Shown here: in pieces, positions 6,502-15,449 of the stretch | Position numbering within the stretch: position 1 is the stretch's first letter | Layout: every line of letters begins with the position of its first letter | NCBI RefSeq assembly: GCF_001602375.1 | Contig: NZ_BCNY01000013.1 | Coordinates: 62,001-126,000 of the forward strand | Reading direction: 5' to 3' | Source: Methanoculleus horonobensis | GTDB lineage: Archaea; Halobacteriota; Methanomicrobia; Methanomicrobiales; Methanoculleaceae | Length of the DNA stretch: 64,000 bases | The notes under the pieces: generated by a model | What the model was told of the DNA's origin: nothing | Databases searched by the model: none | What the model saw: only the letters and a program-made list of their open reading frames with translations | Program-made: the position numbers and the translations under genes

Positions 6502-7026
6502 TTACTCCTGCCACCTCGGCAGCGTCGAGAGGTACTGGCCGACCATCTCCTTCGCCTTCTCGACGGGCATCCCGAGGTTCTCGGCCATCATCGGCGCGTA
6601 CTGCTCGACCGCCCCCTCCCGCGTCAGATCGGGCTCGATGAGCCCCCCGTCCCGGTAGCAGTAGGTGCAGTACCGCGTGCTCAGCGACCCGTCCGCCTCC
6701 GTCCCGGCGTCTTCGTCGCGGGCAAGGGGCATCCCGCAGCTCTCGCAGAGCGGGATCTCCCTCCCCGCCCACCGCTTCAGGCACGAGAGTTGCTCCTTCG
6801 CGAAGGCCACCGCCTTTTCGAGGGGAATCATGTACATCTGCGACATCATCCCTCCGCCGAGCTTCGCCATCTCGTCGATGGTGATTGCGGGGTTCGTAAA
6901 GGCCCCGTCCCGGTAGCAGTAGGTGCAGTAGTCCTTAGATGGTGTGCCGTCCGCTTCCGTCCCGAACTGTTCCTTCGCGCTCATCGGCATCCCGCAGCTC
7001 TGGCACGCACGTATCCCGTCTGTCAA
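6502..7026 (-). CDS. Double zinc-ribbon protein (Zn_ribbon_2 type)
   Basis: A 174-residue protein made of two tandem copies of the same 80-residue unit. Each begins with a zinc knuckle (ACQSCGMPMSAKEQFGTEADG and LCESCGMPLARDEDAGTEAD) and continues with YCTYCYRDG, giving CxxC...CxxC ligand sets, and ends in a helical stretch. This arrangement is known from PF12674-type putative zinc-ribbon proteins, for which no biochemical role is established. A TTG start at 7026 is supported by GGAG 8 bases upstream. Confidence 0.82.
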   Translation of the reverse strand: MTDGIRACQSCGMPMSAKEQFGTEADGTPSKDYCTYCYRDGAFTNPAITIDEMAKLGGGMMSQMYMIPLEKAVAFAKEQLSCLKRWAGREIPLCESCGMPLARDEDAGTEADGSLSTRYCTYCYRDGGLIEPDLTREGAVEQYAPMMAENLGMPVEKAKEMVGQYLSTLPRWQE

Positions 7027-7154
7027 TTTACAATCTCCTTTTAGCGATTGGACGCTTTAAATAAACAAAATAACCGCAATGGTGATAAATATTTGCAAAA
7101 AAGTTCGCGAGAAACGCTGCCGCATCCCGCTGCTGCCGGAGGGCCGGCCGTCGC

Positions 7155-7607
7155 CTACTCGTTCCGGGGAGGGAACCGGATCGTCATCCTGCCGCCTCCG
7201 CCGTGCACGAGCACCGCGTCGCGCTGGAGCGCCCAGGCGTAGCCCTCAAGGTAGGGCTCGGCTACCCGGATATCCGCGAAGGCTTCCCGGACGGCCGTTG
7301 CCGCGCCGTCGACCGCGATAGCCACCCCACCGTCGGCAGCGTCCGTTGCTTCGCAGGGGATCCCCCACGTCAGCAGGAGCCCCTCCATCAGGGTCGGGGG
7401 ATCGAGCTGCTCCTCTGCATGGGTGAGGAGTTCCGTCCCGCTCTCTTCACCAAGTCGCCTGGCGGTGGCGGCTATCCGCTCCGTGAGCCCGGGCGGAGCG
7501 TCCAGAAGGAGTTTCTGCACGAGCGATCCGATGACGTCGTGCCGCTGGAGCGACCGTGCCACCTTGATCAGCTGCCAGTCCCGGGCAAACGAAGTACCGG
7601 TGCGCAT
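7155..7607 (-). CDS. Hypothetical protein, third gene of an Lrp operon
   Basis: A 150-residue soluble protein of unknown family. The first half is helical (DWQLIKVARSLQRHDVIGSLVQKLL). The second half is beta-rich, with GGVAIAVDGAATAVREAF and the Gly-rich VLVHGGGGRMTIRF near the C-terminus. It starts one base after the stop of the small membrane protein upstream, so the two are co-transcribed with the Lrp-family regulator. No function can be given. Confidence 0.7.
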   Translation of the reverse strand: MRTGTSFARDWQLIKVARSLQRHDVIGSLVQKLLLDAPPGLTERIAATARRLGEESGTELLTHAEEQLDPPTLMEGLLLTWGIPCEATDAADGGVAIAVDGAATAVREAFADIRVAEPYLEGYAWALQRDAVLVHGGGGRMTIRFPPRNE

Positions 7608-7608
7608 A

Positions 7609-7896
7609 CTACCCTCTCATGATGCCGTAAGCCATCACGCAGAGGCCGAGGATCACCACAACGCGGGAGAAGATCGCCGACCAGGCGATGGTGAATTCAT
7701 CGGGTGTGAAGACGCTCACGAGATCGGCGAACGTGATTCCCACGACCAGTGTAAACAGCCCGTAGATGAAGAGGAGCAGGGTTGGCTGCCTCACGATCCG
7801 GTAGGCATTGAAGATGATGCCGATGAGAAGCGCTCCTAAAAGAAGCGTCACTATCGCAAGCATCTGCTGTATGGTCTCAACTTCCATTCCGTTCAT
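7609..7896 (-). CDS. Small three-helix membrane protein
   Basis: A 95-residue protein with three hydrophobic segments (about residues 11-30, 38-58 and 70-92) and short loops. Its start overlaps the stop of the Lrp-family regulator by four bases (ATGA-type overlap), which implies translational coupling. Small three-helix membrane proteins next to HTH genes are common in archaea, but their role is not known. Confidence 0.72.
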   Translation of the reverse strand: MNGMEVETIQQMLAIVTLLLGALLIGIIFNAYRIVRQPTLLLFIYGLFTLVVGITFADLVSVFTPDEFTIAWSAIFSRVVVILGLCVMAYGIMRG

Positions 7897-8324
7897 GTCT
7901 GTTCCTTGACCTTCCTCACCGAGATGATCGTCTGGATATCCCTTACCCCCGGAAGGCCGGAGAGGGGGACGAGCACGCTCCGTTTCAGCTCAGATATATT
8001 CTGCACCCGGACCTTGACGAAGAAGTCGCCGGGCTCGAGAACCTCGTAGAGTTCAAGGATGCTCGGGAGGCTCCGCATGAACTCTTCGACCTCCGGTTTC
8101 CCGTCGGGGTGAACCCTGACGTTCAGAAAAGCGACCAGTGTATGCTCGAAACACTTCTGGTTGATGACGATCGTGAACCGCTCGAGGATACCGGCGTTCT
8201 TTAACTTCTCGATCCGTTTAAAGACCGTCGACGGTGCGATGCCCAGCATTGAGCCGAGTTCTGCCATAGACATCCGCCCGTCTCTCTGCAGCTCCCGAAG
8301 GATCGCGTCGTCGATCTCGTCCAT
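7893..8324 (-). CDS. Lrp/AsnC-family transcriptional regulator
   Basis: A 143-residue protein with an N-terminal helix-turn-helix (DDAILRELQRDGRMSMAELG and SMLGIAPSTVFKRIEKL) and a C-terminal RAM/ligand-binding domain (VAFLNVRVHPDGKPEVEEFM, GDFFVKVRVQNISELKRSV, GVRDIQTIISVRKV). Lrp-type proteins bind DNA as octamers and often respond to amino acids or other small metabolites. It leads a three-gene operon with a membrane protein and an unknown protein, and may regulate that operon. An AT-rich TATA-like element lies near 8353-8362. Confidence 0.9.
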   Translation of the reverse strand: MDEIDDAILRELQRDGRMSMAELGSMLGIAPSTVFKRIEKLKNAGILERFTIVINQKCFEHTLVAFLNVRVHPDGKPEVEEFMRSLPSILELYEVLEPGDFFVKVRVQNISELKRSVLVPLSGLPGVRDIQTIISVRKVKEQT

Positions 8325-9411: not shown

Positions 9412-10740
9412 ATGGATGTAGAAGAGATCAGCCGCCGGCACCTCGCCGCCGGCACCCCTGACGACGAGATCGTGCGCTTTCTCTCCCGGGATATCCTCTC
9501 GATCAAGCACCACCGCGTAACACCCGCATACGCCGAGGCATTCGCCCGGGCGGTCGTTGCCGAAGCAAAGAACTCGACCGGGCTCTCCGGCGACCTCTTC
9601 ACGTTCGAGCCATCCGGTTCGACGATGGGCGAGTTCGGCGTCGGCTCGCGGGGGTCGGGCGACTTCTTCGCCCACCGGCAGCTCGCCCGGATCATCGGCC
9701 GGACGGAGGCCGCGGTCGGCGTCGACGAGATGGACGACGCCGGCGCCGTCCGTGCCGGCGGGGACTACATCATCACCACCGTCGACGGGATGCACTCCCG
9801 CCTCTCCGACTTCCCCTTCCTTGCCGGGTTCCACGTCACCCGGGCGACGCTCCGCGACGTCTACGTCATGGGTGCAAAACCCGTCGCGCTCCTCTCCGAT
9901 ATCCACGTCGCCGACGACGGCGATGTGGCAAAGATATTCGACTACACGGCAGGCGTCTCCGCCGTCGGCGAGGCGATGGGCGTCCCGCTCGTCACCGGCT
10001 CGACCCTCCGGATCGGCGGGGACATGGTGCTCGGCTCCCGGATGACCGGGTGCGTCGGCGCCGTCGGCGTCGCGAACCACCTCACCGCCCGGAAGCAGAT
10101 CGCCCCCGGCGACGTCCTCCTCATGACCGAAGGGGCGGGCGGCGGGACGATCGCCACCGCCGCGATCTACTCCGGGTTCCCCGAGGTCGTCGAGGAGACG
10201 ATCAACCTCCACTTCCTCAAAGCCTGCGAGGCGCTGCTTGCGAGCAGTGTCCTCAATAGCATCCACGCCATGACCGACGTCACGAACGGCGGGCTCCGGG
10301 GCGACGCCTACGAGATGGCCGAGACCGCTGGCTGCCGGATCGTCGTCGTCGAGGACGAACTCCGCACCCTCGTCCGGCCGAAAGTTCTCGAGATGCTCGA
10401 CGCGCTCGAGATCGACTACCTCGGCGTATCCCTCGACGCCCTCCTGGTCGTCGCGCCGCCCGAGGCTGCGCCGGAGATCCGGCGGGTCGTGGAGTCCGCG
10501 GGCGTCGCGATGAAAGAGATCGGCTACGTCGAGGTAGGAAAGCCCGAATCCGTCCTCTCGGTCGGCGGCGAGATCCGGGACTTCACTCCCCGGTTCCGGG
10601 AGTCGGCATACACCCCGGTCAAGAAGGTCGTGGACGAGGACAAACGGGACTTCGAGGAGATGAAGGTCGGGGTCGAGCGGGCGGCGGAAGCGGCGCTTGA
10701 AAAGAAGCTCCGGATCCTCTCCCGGCTCCGGTCTTCGTGA
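9412..10740 (+). CDS. AIR synthase-related protein (PurM/SelD/HypE superfamily, COG2144-like)
   Basis: A 442-residue protein. The N-terminal 90 residues are a helical extension. The central part carries the PurM-like N domain (AAVGVDEMDDAGAVRAGGDY, TVDGMHSRLSDFPFLAGFH, DVYVMGAKPVALLSDIHVAD) and the C domain (ALLASSVLNSIHAMTDVTNG, GGLRGDAYEMAE). The superfamily uses ATP to activate an oxygen or carboxamide substrate. Long methanogen versions like this have no assigned reaction. It is not a SelD or HypE, because their Cys features are missing. Highly GC-rich but otherwise regular. Confidence 0.82.
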   Translation: MDVEEISRRHLAAGTPDDEIVRFLSRDILSIKHHRVTPAYAEAFARAVVAEAKNSTGLSGDLFTFEPSGSTMGEFGVGSRGSGDFFAHRQLARIIGRTEAAVGVDEMDDAGAVRAGGDYIITTVDGMHSRLSDFPFLAGFHVTRATLRDVYVMGAKPVALLSDIHVADDGDVAKIFDYTAGVSAVGEAMGVPLVTGSTLRIGGDMVLGSRMTGCVGAVGVANHLTARKQIAPGDVLLMTEGAGGGTIATAAIYSGFPEVVEETINLHFLKACEALLASSVLNSIHAMTDVTNGGLRGDAYEMAETAGCRIVVVEDELRTLVRPKVLEMLDALEIDYLGVSLDALLVVAPPEAAPEIRRVVESAGVAMKEIGYVEVGKPESVLSVGGEIRDFTPRFRESAYTPVKKVVDEDKRDFEEMKVGVERAAEAALEKKLRILSRLRSS

Positions 10741-10796
10741 GGAGATCGGATGCATTCTCGATTGGCGGAAGGATATCTGTTGCCTTAAGAAGAGGG

Positions 10797-11039
10797 TTAT
10801 CGTAAGAGATCGTAGACGTGTTCTTTCGTCATGCCCTCAAATTCTGCGATGTCGGTGACGATTGCGTTCAGTGTAGCTACATTAAGTTCGTCGTGAAGGG
10901 GTATGGTAACCCGAAGTCGTTTATCTCCAACAACTTTACGCATCTGGACGTGACTTCCGGCCTGCCGGAGAAAAGAAAATCCAAGTTTTTCAAGGACTTT
11001 GATAGTCTTGAAACCACTAACAACCGGGTGTCGCGGCAA
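10797..11039 (-). CDS. hicA: HicA-family toxin
   Basis: An 80-residue protein with the HicA arrangement: GFKTIKVLEKLGFSFLRQAG, then the presumed catalytic His in GSHVQMRKV, a strand RVTIPLHDEL and a C-terminal helix pair. It overlaps the 3' end of the upstream hicB-like gene by 23 bases, in antitoxin-first order. Presumed mRNA interferase. It shares little sequence with the HicA at 5866, so the two loci were probably acquired separately. Confidence 0.82.
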   Translation of the reverse strand: MPRHPVVSGFKTIKVLEKLGFSFLRQAGSHVQMRKVVGDKRLRVTIPLHDELNVATLNAIVTDIAEFEGMTKEHVYDLLR

Positions 11040-11292
11040 TGATATCGACCTTGTATTCGAAATTTGACGGGATCGGGCTCTCCTGTTCGTGGGTTTCGGA
11101 TTTGTACCTGGTTACAATGGTGATTCGTTCTCCCGCTTCGAGCTCTTCCGTGTAATGGAGCGACGTTGCTTCCAGGATGTTGTCGATGAGTTCTCCGATG
11201 CTTTTGCCCTGGGTAAAGATGGCATTTTCAGGTGCATGTGCGCTGGCGCTCCACCATCCTTCGGCATACGTTACTTCAAATGTGACCAGCAT
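11017..11292 (-). CDS. hicB: HicB-like antitoxin
   Basis: A 91-residue protein beginning MLVTFEVTYAEGWWSASAHA, with FTQGKSIGELIDNILEAT in the position of the HicB helix. This is the short HicB-type fold. It lies immediately upstream of and overlaps hicA, as expected for a coupled antitoxin-toxin operon. Confidence 0.8.
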   Translation of the reverse strand: MLVTFEVTYAEGWWSASAHAPENAIFTQGKSIGELIDNILEATSLHYTEELEAGERITIVTRYKSETHEQESPIPSNFEYKVDIIAATPGC

Positions 11293-11610
11293 GACGTTAC
11301 ACCTCTGCGTAATTGGGATATTGGGTTTTTCAGGGATAAGTTTGGTGGTGACATGGTTGCCACATCCAGATCACATTATCTGTCATCATCTTATCGGACG
11401 CGCACGACGGGGTCGGCGGTATCGGTATCCGCAGTCAGAGGAGATGCCGTTCCCCGCGCCTGCCATCAGGGTGGTGTTCTCGGCAACGCCCTCGTAGTCG
11501 TTAACCTGCTCTTTTCTCCTGTCTCCTGCAGGAGTATGCAGGTGGGCGAGTGCGATGGGCATCGGGATGCCGGATGGGAGGGCACCCTGCGCCCCCTCCC
11601 ACGAACCGAC
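11293..11610. other. Intergenic region without a supported gene
   Basis: About 300 bases between the hicB start and the serpin terminator region. Frames present here are short and show no family features. A GC-rich inverted repeat (GGGAGGG / CCCTCCC) lies at 11577-11600. Confidence 0.5.
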
Positions 11611-11646
11611 GGAAGGGGGGAAAGAACGACCCCTTGTTCCCCCCTT
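11611..11646 (-). terminator. Hairpin at the serpin 3' end
   Basis: GAAGGGGGGAA and TTCCCCCCTTC form a strong inverted repeat directly after the serpin stop codon, followed on the minus strand by a second hairpin (11577-11600). It is probably a transcript-end or stability structure. Archaeal termination does not require hairpins, so the role is inferred. Confidence 0.4.
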
Positions 11647-12920
11647 CACGTGCCTTCGGGGTTGACGACCCTCCCCATGAAGAGGATCGCGCCTGAATCC
11701 TTCTCAGTGATGAGGAAGATAAACGGGTGGTCCGCACGGAAGACGGGTGCGGTCTCCGGACCTACAGCCCCCCCGCCCGCGATGATGACGGCGGTCGCCG
11801 CCGCTGCCTCGGTTCCCTCCTCGTTCACGTCGACGAACGCCTTGTGGACGACATCGCTGATGAAGAGCATATCCGTGCCGTCCATCCCCGAGAAGTTGGC
11901 CGCATCAGTGAACGCCGTCGGCATCCCCATCGCTGCGAGCGCCTGCGGGAGACTGTACTCCGTCTCAAGCGTGAACTTCGGGAAGACGACCCTGACGCGC
12001 CGGTCGGTCAGCGAATCCCGGATCCCGGTGAGCGTCCCGACGTCGAGAACCTCTTCTGCTGCCGTCAGGTTGTCTTCCTTCGGGAGGAGGACGAGCATCG
12101 AGAGTTCCGTTCCGTTCCCGTGCGCATACGGCATCCTGAGCACCTGGAGGGTCCCCGTCTCGGTATATCCGTATATGGCATCCTCGTCCGTCCGGTGCAT
12201 CATCTGGACCTGCACTGTCTCGTCCTGAGCGATCCGGAACGCCTCCTCCGTCGTCTCGGCGGGATCGAACTGCTTGACCCAGGTACCCTTGAAGTAGATA
12301 GCGTTCGTGATCACGAGCCGGGTGAGGTCGTCGATCGAGTCGGCTGGGAGAAGGTCGCGGATTTTATCCTCGGTCTGCTCTTCCACCCACCGGTTGATCG
12401 TCTCCCGCGACCCCTCGGGGTCGTTGATGAAGTCGAAGTTCGTGACGTTCGCCCCGTACCAGCGTTCGGCAATCCCAGTGTAGTCCGGGAGGAACGAATA
12501 GGTCTCCTCCGCCCAGAGGGCGTTTGCGGTGCGGAGGGTGTAGTTGGCGCTCCCCCGATTGAGGCCGGCATCCAGCCAGGCAAACCCGGCTCTCCGGAGG
12601 GTCTTGTTCTCCGGAAGGTGCAGCACCGACCGGATCTCGTCGGCGGTCGTGCCGCGGGCGCCCTCGCAGGTGATCGCGAGGGCCGAGGTGATGCTGTAGG
12701 GCGAGAAGAAGAGGTTGTCTCCCGCATGCGCCGGCTCGGCCGCGAGGTGGCGGTAGAGGTCGACCGCGAACCGGTTGTTGCCGGCCGCCACACTATCGTC
12801 GGCTACGGATTCACCGGAGACCGAGGTCGTGTTCAGAGGTGCGGTCCCGCAGACAGCCAGTCCTGCAAGAATGAGCGCCAGAACCAGGATGCCTATTCCA
12901 GAGATCAATAGTCTTTTCAT
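11646..12920 (-). CDS. Serpin-family serine protease inhibitor, predicted lipoprotein
   Basis: A 424-residue serpin. The start at 12920 gives an N-terminal signal (MKRLLISGIGILVLALILAG) ending in a lipobox-like LAVC, so the protein is probably secreted and membrane-anchored. Serpin signatures are NLFFSPYSITSALAITCEGA, NAIYFKGTWVKQFDP, VVHKAFVDVNEEGTEAAAA and HPFIFLITEKDSGAILFMGR. The hinge (EEGTEAAAAT) has the small residues needed for loop insertion, so it should be inhibitory. The reactive-centre region is AGGGAVGPETAP, rich in Gly and Ala, which would suit subtilisin- or elastase-like proteases. It is followed on the chromosome by a membrane winged-helix regulator gene. Confidence 0.93.
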   Translation of the reverse strand: MKRLLISGIGILVLALILAGLAVCGTAPLNTTSVSGESVADDSVAAGNNRFAVDLYRHLAAEPAHAGDNLFFSPYSITSALAITCEGARGTTADEIRSVLHLPENKTLRRAGFAWLDAGLNRGSANYTLRTANALWAEETYSFLPDYTGIAERWYGANVTNFDFINDPEGSRETINRWVEEQTEDKIRDLLPADSIDDLTRLVITNAIYFKGTWVKQFDPAETTEEAFRIAQDETVQVQMMHRTDEDAIYGYTETGTLQVLRMPYAHGNGTELSMLVLLPKEDNLTAAEEVLDVGTLTGIRDSLTDRRVRVVFPKFTLETEYSLPQALAAMGMPTAFTDAANFSGMDGTDMLFISDVVHKAFVDVNEEGTEAAAATAVIIAGGGAVGPETAPVFRADHPFIFLITEKDSGAILFMGRVVNPEGT

Positions 12921-13058
12921 CGTTCTCTCCCGTGGATGGCATCGAGGTGGCCGGTGATCCGCGAACCGGGTAACTTCCGGGCATCCACACGGAGTCTTTC
13001 TGCAGGAAGACGATAATATCGGCGAAAGCGTTCGATCCCGGTCGAACGGGTTCAAAAA

Positions 13059-13619
13059 CTATATCAGTCGCGTGGCTTCCCCACCCGCAGGATTGGGAGA
13101 CTGCGTCGCTGCACGCATCTCCCGCCACCGGACGCAGGCATACGCCATGAGGACCCCCCCGATCACCGCGAGCGCGATCCCGGCAACGAGCAGTTCCACG
13201 GGAGGCCCCTCCGTGACCGGGAGGCCGCCGCCGCCTATTGGTCTCGGAGAGATCGGCCCTTCCCGGACCGGCGCGGTCAGGAAGGCCGCGAGGGCACAGA
13301 CCCCTCCGGCGAGGCTTGCCAGTCCCGCAGCCAGGATTATCCGGATCCGGGCACCGCCGTGCGGCTGCAGGAGGGCCAGCCCCTCCGGCGTGAGCGCGTA
13401 GTACACCCAGGCGTGTCCGTCGTCGCCTGCGGCGACAAAACCGGCGTCGGCCAGTCTCTGCAGGTGGTGATGAACCGTGGATTTTGCCAGGTTGAGGTCG
13501 GCCGCAAGTTCCGTGATCGTCATCCTGCGTATATGCAGAGCCTTTAAAATATCAAGCCGGGTTTCGGATGCGAGAACCTCGAACGTATCCTTCGTCAGGA
13601 TGATATCGGCCGGCTCCAT
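13059..13619 (-). CDS. Membrane-anchored ArsR-like winged-helix regulator
   Basis: A 186-residue protein. Residues 8-75 form a winged helix of the ArsR type (EVLASETRLDILKALHIRRM, ITELAADLNLAKSTVHHHLQ, HAWVYYALTPEGLALL). Two hydrophobic segments follow, at about 91-112 and 143-163, so the DNA-binding domain is tethered to the membrane. It lies about 140 bases upstream of the serpin on the same strand and could control it, perhaps in response to an extracellular or membrane signal (inference). Confidence 0.8.
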   Translation of the reverse strand: MEPADIILTKDTFEVLASETRLDILKALHIRRMTITELAADLNLAKSTVHHHLQRLADAGFVAAGDDGHAWVYYALTPEGLALLQPHGGARIRIILAAGLASLAGGVCALAAFLTAPVREGPISPRPIGGGGLPVTEGPPVELLVAGIALAVIGGVLMAYACVRWREMRAATQSPNPAGGEATRLI

Positions 13620-13747
13620 AGGGGAGTAGTTCGGAAAGACGGGATATAACTATTCCGTTATCCCCACATCGCAAAAAAGAAGCCTCCTCATGCGGCCGGG
13701 TCGAGTGAGAGCAGGGAACGGCCCGTGCGTCCCCTCACAGACGTGAC

Positions 13748-14464
13748 TTAACTCTCTGGTTTCTTCCCCGCCGCGCAGACGTTATACGCCAGGTACGGCA
13801 GTTTCTCCTCGACGATCGGCTCCACCTTCCGTGCGAGGTTGAAGACCGGATCGGCGAGGTTCAGGTGCGCAAACGAGCACCGGCCGACCGAGACGTCCGT
13901 AAAGCCGGCCTCGCGGAAGAGCCCCGCGATCTCGGCATTGGTGTAGTAGTGCTCGTCGAAGTGCCCGACGCCCACCTTCTTCAGGCCGACCTTCTCCCCC
14001 ACCTGGTAGGCGATAGGGACGATGCTCGTGAAGACCGTCCTTGATAAGGTGCAGATCGCGATCCGGCCGCCGGGCTTCAAGACCCGGTAGCACTCCCGGA
14101 GCATCCCCTCCGGGTTGGGGACGTAACTGAAGGCGAGCAGGCTCGCGAGGGCGTCGAAAGTGCCGTCCTTGAACGGGAGGACGTCTGCCGTACCGACGCA
14201 GAACCCGCTCTCCGGGCACCGCTGCCGCCCGTGCCGAACCATCCCCGGGCTGATATCGAGCCCGAAGGCCCGGCCGCCTTCCGCGACGTAGCGCTGCACG
14301 AAGAGCCCGGTTCCGCACCCGACGTCGAGGAGGAACCCCCCCTTCGGGAGTTCGCTCATCACGTGTTCGGAGATGTGCCCGTGGTAATACTTCCCGCGGC
14401 TACCGTCGTAGCGCTCGTCGTAGATATCCGCGACCTCGTCATAATGTTGCTGTACTTTCTTCAC
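13748..14464 (-). CDS. Class I SAM-dependent methyltransferase
   Basis: A 238-residue UbiE-like methyltransferase: motif I LLDVGCGTGLFVQRY, the acidic loop GLDISPGMVRHGRQRCP, motif III VLPFKDGTFDALASLLAFSY and VLKPGGRIAIC. The N-terminus (HYDEVADIYDERYDG) is typical of small-molecule methyltransferases. The substrate is not predictable. Its start overlaps the 3' end of the RFC-like gene by 26 bases. Confidence 0.85.
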   Translation of the reverse strand: MKKVQQHYDEVADIYDERYDGSRGKYYHGHISEHVMSELPKGGFLLDVGCGTGLFVQRYVAEGGRAFGLDISPGMVRHGRQRCPESGFCVGTADVLPFKDGTFDALASLLAFSYVPNPEGMLRECYRVLKPGGRIAICTLSRTVFTSIVPIAYQVGEKVGLKKVGVGHFDEHYYTNAEIAGLFREAGFTDVSVGRCSFAHLNLADPVFNLARKVEPIVEEKLPYLAYNVCAAGKKPES

Positions 14465-15449
14465 TGAACACCTCCCGGGCTATCCGGGCAAGTAGTGCAT
14501 TGATCTGCACAAAATCGTTTGCGTTGTGGGAGAGCCGGAGATCCGCGTCGGCGAGCGCGACGGCAAGGGCCGGGTGGTTGTACTCGCGCCGGGCCACCTG
14601 CCGGAGTTCGCCGACGACCTCCCGCGCCGAGAGTCCGTACTCGATCATCAGCGACTCGGCGATCCGGCGGGCGGCGTCGAAGTTGCCGTCCCGGAGGGCG
14701 ACGAACGCCGACGTAGCGACGTTTGTGGTCTCGGAGCGCGAGATCTCCGCAAGATCGAACTCCTGCTCCGCTCTTGCGGCGATCTGCAGGTACATGATCG
14801 CACGCCGCAGGTCTCCCTGCGCGGCATACACGATCAGGTCGATGTCGTCGGCCGGAACCGCCGCCCCTTCCGCGGCCAGGATCTCCTCGAGCCGGGTCAG
14901 GACGAGACTGCTCTCGACCGGGGCGAAGAAGAGCGGCAGGCAGCGCGACGCGATGGCGGGGATGATCGCCGAGGGGCGGACGGTGACGAAGATGAACCGG
15001 CAGGTGGCGCTGTAGCGCTCCATCGTCCGGCGCAGGGCCTGCTGCGCCTCGAACGTCAGGCCGTGCGCGTCCTCGAAGACCATCAGCTTGAAGTCGGCGT
15101 CGAGCGGGCGCATCGAGGCGTACCACTTCACGATCTGCTTGAAGTTGACGATCAGGCTCCGGTCTTTGCGGTAGATCATGCTGAACCGCTCGTCCGTCTC
15201 GAGCGCGCTCCTCCCCCGCCCGAGAAGGTCGGTCGCGCTGAAGACGGTCGTGTTCGCCTTCCAGTTCTCGCCGTAGAGCCTTTTTGCGAGGCACTCGACG
15301 GCCGCGGTCTTCCCGGTGCCGTGCGGGCCGGAGATGAGCATGTGGGGCACGCTGCCGGAGTCCGAAAACGCCGTTAAATGGCGAACGACCTCGTCCTGTC
15401 CGATGATATCGTCGCACCGCGCCGGGCGGTAGACCTCACTCCAGAGCAT
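14439..15449 (-). CDS. RFC small-subunit-like AAA+ clamp loader protein
   Basis: A 336-residue AAA+ protein of the replication factor C small-subunit family, distinct from the canonical RfcS at 27228. It begins LWSEVYRPARCDDIIGQDEV. Walker A is GPHGTGKT and the arginine-finger SRC motif is kept (AIASRC). The Walker B region reads FEDAH instead of the usual LDEAD. Some methanogens have a three-subunit RFC with two different small subunits; this is the likely second one. It overlaps the methyltransferase gene downstream and, by 14 bases, the CoA gene upstream. Confidence 0.87.
   Translation of the reverse strand: MLWSEVYRPARCDDIIGQDEVVRHLTAFSDSGSVPHMLISGPHGTGKTAAVECLAKRLYGENWKANTTVFSATDLLGRGRSALETDERFSMIYRKDRSLIVNFKQIVKWYASMRPLDADFKLMVFEDAHGLTFEAQQALRRTMERYSATCRFIFVTVRPSAIIPAIASRCLPLFFAPVESSLVLTRLEEILAAEGAAVPADDIDLIVYAAQGDLRRAIMYLQIAARAEQEFDLAEISRSETTNVATSAFVALRDGNFDAARRIAESLMIEYGLSAREVVGELRQVARREYNHPALAVALADADLRLSHNANDFVQINALLARIAREVFSEESTATL

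Follow-up and report, generated by a model that had tools for sequence, protein, structure and literature searches.

What prokaryotic serpins do and how they are controlled is called enigmatic or little known in the available parts of two reports (PMC8233489, PMC10090351). The question is raised here by a locus in a 64,000-nucleotide stretch of the Methanoculleus horonobensis genome (the window), where a serpin gene lies behind, and on the same strand as, the gene of a putative membrane-bound winged-helix protein. The original prediction had read the pair as a surface lipoprotein inhibitor, of a kind rare in archaea, possibly under the control of a surface sensor. Our analysis keeps the inhibitory-type serpin and the membrane-bound candidate regulator and gives up the surface lipoprotein and the rarity; it also adds what the prediction had missed, a protease gene at the same place in relatives. 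Features of the locus are listed in Table 1, and compared loci and genomes are cited by their L and G labels.

Table 1. Features of the serpin locus, in window positions
Feature	Position	Strand	Basis
Remnant of a gene for a C39-like peptidase, next to the serpin on its downstream side	11376..11498	-	blastn to the L057 and L079 peptidase genes
Serpin gene of the regulator-linked type, 424 aa; has a signal segment and no canonical lipobox	11646..12920	-	PF00079 and translation
Serpin reactive-centre loop tip AVIIAGGGAVGPETAPVF, variable among orthologues	11739..11792	-	extent set by the author
Serpin hinge P17-P8 EEGTEAAAAT, inhibitory consensus	11793..11822	-	sequence, translation
Dyad GTTCGA-N6-TCGAAC, proposed operator	13030..13047	.	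conservation, single genome site, covariation
TATA-like GATATAG, putative serpin promoter, 12-18 nt upstream of the dyad	13059..13065	-	sequence
ArsR-type winged-helix regulator, membrane-anchored, 186 aa	13059..13619	-	profiles, predicted structure, intact orthologues (21, from 40 genomes of the family)
Second predicted membrane helix, about residues 141-165	13125..13199	-	hydropathy; model helix 141-173
First predicted membrane helix, residues 88-115	13275..13358	-	hydropathy; model helix 88-115
Winged-helix core, residues 18-62	13434..13568	-	PF01022 match; nearest fold CzrA 1r1v
TATA-like element GTTATATCCC, putative promoter of the regulator, about 22 nt before its ATG	13641..13650	-	sequence

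The serpin was matched to PF00079 over its whole domain, with 390.8 bits (cut-off 27) and profile positions 2-370 of 370 covered. Translation was started at the ATG at 12920, which is preceded by GGGAGAG; a longer frame, opening with TTG, is also listed among the ORFs and was not needed. As predicted, the hinge is of the inhibitory type: the segment EEGTEAAAAT (11793-11822) carries at P17-P9 the residues EEGTEAAAA, in agreement with the consensus ExGTEAAAA that the available parts of two papers give for prokaryotic serpins (PMC8233489, PMC10090351). Pnserpin, Tk-serpin, chloropin (8GXV) and miropin likewise combine a full serpin domain with this hinge, and chloropin is the second-best solved structural match of the window serpin. 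Among serpins linked to the regulator (L057_4848 left out), mean pairwise identity was 1.00 in the hinge (n = 18), 0.81 in the core and 0.51 in the loop tip; L062, L085, L087, L088, L078 and L086 were left out of the corresponding unlinked set. The invariant hinge beside a divergent loop tip suggests that the inhibitory machinery has been retained while the specificity loop is changing.

Serpins are not rare in this part of the archaea. PF00079 matches were found in 38 of the 40 family genomes (37 above the cut-off) and in 110 of 232 genomes of the order (109 above it), in 31 of 40 genera, an abundance across the order that distinguishes this case from the prokaryotic serpins compared above. 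Local expansions were also observed, with nine serpin matches in G103 and eight in G189.

A lipobox has Gly, Ala or Ser at -1 and Cys at +1. In the window serpin this region reads L-A-V-C, with Val at -1, and the predicted lipobox is therefore degenerate; nor is one conserved among 19 regulator-linked serpins, in which the two residues are V-C (12), A-C (1) or G-C (1), the Cys is missing at that place (4, among them L075 with a Cys inside the hydrophobic segment) or there is no in-frame signal (1). Unlinked serpins have G-C at the lipobox in 36 of 40. The 2.45-Mb genome of the window (G000) holds two serpins, the second of which (C15:767903-769027) has the clear lipobox that the window serpin lacks. 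After this comparison with paralogues the lipoprotein reading was dropped: the lipoprotein serpin is the paralogue elsewhere in the genome, and a surface-lipoprotein role of the window serpin is unsupported. In a tree built by a quick method from 57 rows (L062, L085, L087 and L088 left out), the 19 linked serpins formed a single clade (SH-aLRT 94) within the Methanoculleus lipoprotein serpins, and L057_4848, the basal member of this clade, retains a lipobox. Because the linked clade is nested in this way and its basal member keeps the lipobox, the linked serpin is most likely the product of a duplication, after which the lipid anchor was lost.

The predicted winged helix and two membrane helices of the upstream gene product were recovered by profile and hydropathy searches. 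The protein scored 50.4 bits against HTH_5/ArsR (PF01022; cut-off 22) and 61.6 bits against NF033788 (cut-off 55), hydropathy marked two hydrophobic segments at residues of about 92-118 and 138-165, and the best fold match of the predicted model, of modest quality (pLDDT 68), was CzrA at E 9e-4. Hydropathy and model agree in placing two membrane helices after the winged helix, as in a membrane-tethered regulator. The helices are joined by a short Gly/Pro-rich loop and followed by a basic tail, an arrangement which suggests that both ends of the protein are inside the cell. The winged-helix fold is shared with the ArsR/SmtB repressors CzrA, SmtB and SdpR, from which the window regulator differs in its two C-terminal membrane helices, in the lack of an invariant Cys and in the position of its invariant His residues in the DNA-reading helix; against the SdpR profile it scored 41.3, far below the cut-off of 100. 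On inspection no conserved metal ligands were found, and since the invariant residues His50-52 sit in the DNA-reading helix the protein does not have the features of a metalloregulator. The sequence TTATAT, upstream of the gene, recurs upstream of orthologues.

Regulator and serpin genes are separated by 138 nt in the window, and this pairing is conserved. Intact regulator orthologues numbered 21 among the 40 family genomes and were followed by a serpin in 17 loci (L094 and L095 end at a contig edge inside the serpin), by a C39-like peptidase and then a serpin in two (L057, L079) and by a peptidase alone in two (L092, L093); L072 and L057 each hold, in addition, a truncated regulator copy that adjoins a serpin. 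When the count was confined to family genomes of 90% completeness or more (n = 26), the regulator was present in 18 (16 with a linked serpin, two with the peptidase only), and the remaining eight each had exactly one serpin, of the unlinked kind. The two genes have thus stayed linked in relatives, except in the two genomes with a peptidase in the serpin's place. That they are chance neighbours with no functional link is barely credible, since 19 of 21 regulators have a serpin as the first or second gene after them and since a linked serpin is lacking in all eight near-complete genomes without the regulator. Two further arrangements were noted. At L057 4333-6116 (+), the second, truncated regulator copy, with the dyad variant GTTCGACCGAGATCGAAC, adjoins a lipobox-bearing serpin and is a possible intermediate in the capture of this place by a serpin. 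The other, L257 (G107:C116; 400-3175), comes from a different family of the order: at the end of a contig, a regulator homologue has two same-strand serpin genes upstream of it, which may be a serpin association of independent origin.

Between the regulator and the next gene lies the dyad GTTCGA-N6-TCGAAC, which is exact in 19 of the 21 orthologous loci, has one mismatch in the other two and starts 14-27 nt past the last sense codon of the regulator. Its exact form occurs at a single site in the G000 genome. Across the 40 family genomes there are 24 exact sites, 22 of them at the regulator locus, and across the 232 order genomes 53 sites in 48 genomes, 29 at the regulator locus and 24 elsewhere. 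The reversed pattern, used as a control in the same 232 genomes, gave 11 sites, so that the bare pattern is not rare and location is what counts; the figure of 86/4000 from a random-window control takes in windows covering the site itself and is not taken as a rate. The spacer differs between loci and conservation of the left flank is 0.52, while the value of 1.00 for the arms arises by selection, because sites were collected with the exact pattern. In the 200 nt upstream of the regulator, the best match to the dyad had 4-5 mismatches in all 21 loci, so autorepression through the dyad is unsupported. Separately, a recurring dyad site, GTTCGAGCGGGATCGAAC, was seen away from the regulator in eight order genomes (14 counting spacer variants after GCGG).

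Outside the genus, close regulators were found by protein search (L205-L212), and the exact dyad is present in all seven of these loci with enough sequence (L212 is at a contig edge), 26-413 nt beyond the regulator. With other spacers it stands behind regulators 55, 40 and 36% identical to that of the window (L112 = L205, L115 = L208 and L116 = L207, respectively). No exact dyad was found at the more distant regulator loci read (L213 onward). In two of these, L216 and L217, the stretch separating regulator and peptidase contains GTTCGG-N6-CCGAAC, in which the two arms have changed in concert, and a search of 12 distant regulator loci for other inverted repeats returned the covaried form in these two only.

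A TATA-like hexamer, NTATA[TAG], precedes the dyad by 12-21 nt in 21 of the 31 sites (0.012 in random windows); the sites are related, and the 21 matches are not independent events. The strict hexamer is missing at L208, L210, L211, L069, L070, L079 (twice), L081, L216 and L217; slot genes, that is, those occupying the place behind regulator and dyad, are decayed or partial in the first three, and the other seven misses are at intact loci. When the usual archaeal TATA-to-start spacing was applied, the predicted serpin start site fell inside the dyad, which would be a repressor's position; this placing of the proposed operator over the start site derives from the hexamer. The conserved linkage and the conserved dyad at the putative serpin promoter support the regulator as a candidate for control of the serpin, as originally proposed.

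The regulator might instead be an activator, or another protein might read the dyad and the regulator be linked to the locus in some other way. Dyads of the same form away from the regulator (24 of 53 sites), the lack of the exact form at more distant regulators and the indirect placing of the start site would all suit such an arrangement, which we nevertheless regard as unlikely because the dyad tracks the close regulator clade both within the genus (19 of 21 exact, one mismatch in two) and outside it (seven of seven) and because its arms covary in two distant members; activation in particular is at odds with the dyad's place downstream of a TATA-like hexamer. It is decidedly improbable that the dyad forms a hairpin in the leader RNA or terminates the regulator gene instead of binding a protein. 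A 6-bp stem with covarying arms would look alike, and most Methanoculleus loci have 3-4 T just after the dyad, but no longer T-run is present, the TATA position would begin the transcript inside the dyad, and in L057 and L079, where peptidase and serpin each have their own copy, the dyad recurs directly before the serpin (L057:9640, L079:4697) and behind a peptidase gene, not the regulator. The sole Rfam match within 10500-14500 was elsewhere than the dyad and below the gathering score, and the dyad was rejected both as a terminator and as an Rfam element.

The slot genes of relatives match the secreted cysteine peptidases of Peptidase_C39_2 (PF13529). Scores were 31-37 bits in L112, L116, L206 and L213 and 24-26 bits in L057 and L258 (cut-off 24), and the L092 orthologue of the L057 peptidase (6797-8110), which has a signal-like N-terminus, scored 22.9 bits, just below the cut-off. 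Gln42, Cys48 and His136 are invariant in ten of ten slot peptidases and an Asp is present in nine of ten; we read these residues as catalytic. The slot peptidases differ from the PF13529 family in a C-terminal domain of their own, for which Pfam gave no match above cut-off. The peptidase model had a pLDDT of 66, with much of the C39 part below 50, and no Foldseek match at 0.001 or better, the C39 domain of ComA (5xe8) appearing only at E 1.0; with structure this weak, the C39 assignment rests on Pfam and the conserved residues. Within the family, a slot peptidase was found in four of 40 genomes, always behind the regulator. Outside the genus, regulator and dyad are followed by a C39-like peptidase gene in L205, L206, L207 and L209 (called by Pfam above cut-off in the first three and by likeness to L207 in L209), and the distant regulators L213, L216, L217 and L258 also precede C39-like genes.

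Other distant regulator homologues adjoin streptogrisin-like proteases, a class for which Pfam gave no match and a single-sequence PDB search only a weak one (best relevant 0.05), the profile search being clear (streptogrisin B, 1sgd, 1.2e-7). Proteins with signal-like N-termini are encoded beside three more homologues, at L215 5108-5800 (-), L223 5049-5807 (-) and L256 3304-4074 (+); L223 and L256 match DUF6345, L215 has no Pfam match, and by their His-Gly and later Cys motifs all three look caspase-like. Outside the Methanoculleus subfamily, 32 of 59 regulator ORFs (one duplicate locus removed) adjoin a tested protease gene, namely C39-like (11, including decayed genes), DUF6345/caspase-like (3) or streptogrisin-like, downstream (10) or divergent (8); the profiles were partly built from regulator neighbours, and the tally is thus descriptive and no blind test for enrichment. 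The other 27 adjoin no protease gene of the tested classes; 20 of them fall together on one side of a branch in the regulator tree (SH-aLRT 95), and five of the remaining seven are at contig ends. Duplicated, truncated, contig-end or unlabelled ORFs were left out of this tree (both copies of L057, L072, L094, L095, L097, L212, L218, L220, L236, L240, L242 and L257). A separate regulator clade from Methanoculleus and relatives (L096, L231, L233, L235, L237 and L259-L261) is without tested proteases alongside; in L237, L259, L260 and L261 the regulator precedes what we read as a permease-like membrane protein.

The linkage, the dyad and the exchange of slot genes are firmly established at the sequence level. 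Together with the covariation of the dyad, the serpin duplication and the intact hinge, which are likewise read from the sequences, they are best explained, we think probably, by a membrane-tethered ArsR-type repressor that controls one secreted proteolysis gene and whose slot was taken in Methanoculleus by a duplicated serpin. The locus would then be a one-component regulatory module for extracytoplasmic proteolysis. In the proposed mechanism, which supplies the dyad binding, repression, membrane topology, signal, inhibition and target, the repressor would keep its winged helix in the cytoplasm, show the short Gly/Pro-rich loop outside and sit on the dyad at 13030-13047 over the predicted start site, holding the neighbouring gene off. 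Release would come from a signal in the membrane or on its outer side, possibly the activity of foreign proteases. The gene so controlled would be a secreted cysteine peptidase in related genera; in Methanoculleus, the duplicated serpin would have captured the slot, lost its lipobox and come to be exported as an inhibitor, most likely acting against foreign proteases.

The gene neighborhood also bears on the serpin's target. Just downstream of the serpin, blastn against eight chosen loci revealed similarity to the intact peptidase gene of L057 over 123 nt (74.8%, 7e-16) and to that of L079 over 77 nt (7e-10), and comparable remnants follow the serpin in L051 and L055. At least part of the peptidase gene was therefore once present at this place in the window's lineage. 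These remnants beside the serpin, and the presence of both genes behind separate dyads in G027 and G030, would fit a serpin that restrains the linked C39-like peptidase as an enzyme-inhibitor pair, the peptidase having since been lost in most lineages; serpins inhibiting papain-like enzymes exist (Serpin B3). We hold this pairing to be doubtful, since most serpin loci are without an intact peptidase (four of 40 genomes have one) and yet the hinge is invariant, and since peptidase-only loci persist in G015 and G019, although each of these genomes has one unlinked serpin. Apart from the remnant, the genome of the window gave no match to PF13529, and none to the other two protease classes sought, subtilase (PF00082) and the streptogrisin-like query. 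The serpin's targets are therefore more likely foreign than own proteases, which agrees with the exported inhibitor of the preferred reading.

A wider form of the repressor reading is offered tentatively and has somewhat less than an even chance: a Methanomicrobiales family of membrane-tethered ArsR-fold regulators might sense extracellular proteolysis, with the outer loop as protease bait or signal sensor, and each might control a single neighbouring gene for secreted proteolysis by way of a dyad at its start site. The slot, swapped among cysteine peptidases, streptogrisin-like and caspase-like proteins and, in Methanoculleus, a serpin as their functional opposite, would then make up a rewired protease/antiprotease switch.

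A working parallel is offered by Bifidobacterium breve, whose serpin gene adjoins a sensor-regulator pair, a two-component system, and is induced by proteases, papain in particular (Alvarez-Martin 2012, as cited in the part available of PMC8012564). The window locus differs in that a single membrane-tethered winged-helix protein, in an archaeon and with homologues beside proteases, stands in the place of the two-component system. From the prokaryotic serpins listed above, the window serpin is set apart by its linkage to a membrane regulator, by a promoter dyad common to secreted peptidases and by its degenerate lipobox. No description of such a module was found among the literature matches listed (titles and abstract starts), and no paper joining Methanoculleus and serpin was found in the literature search. 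The component kinds are known; what is new is the placing of a serpin under a putative membrane-tethered regulator whose relatives adjoin secreted proteases. For an archaeal serpin there is now a regulator candidate, one candidate operator site and a set of natural exchanges with proteases, so that the signals to which such serpins respond can be tested through a single promoter and a single binding site. If the proposal is true, a compact archaeal switch for extracellular proteolysis is defined.

Beyond the peptidase remnant, at 10800-11292 (-), lies a HicA-like gene (PF07927, 4.4e-14). It is overlapped upstream by a small gene that resembles a HicB partner and has no Pfam match, a copy of which also occurs after the first serpin in L057.
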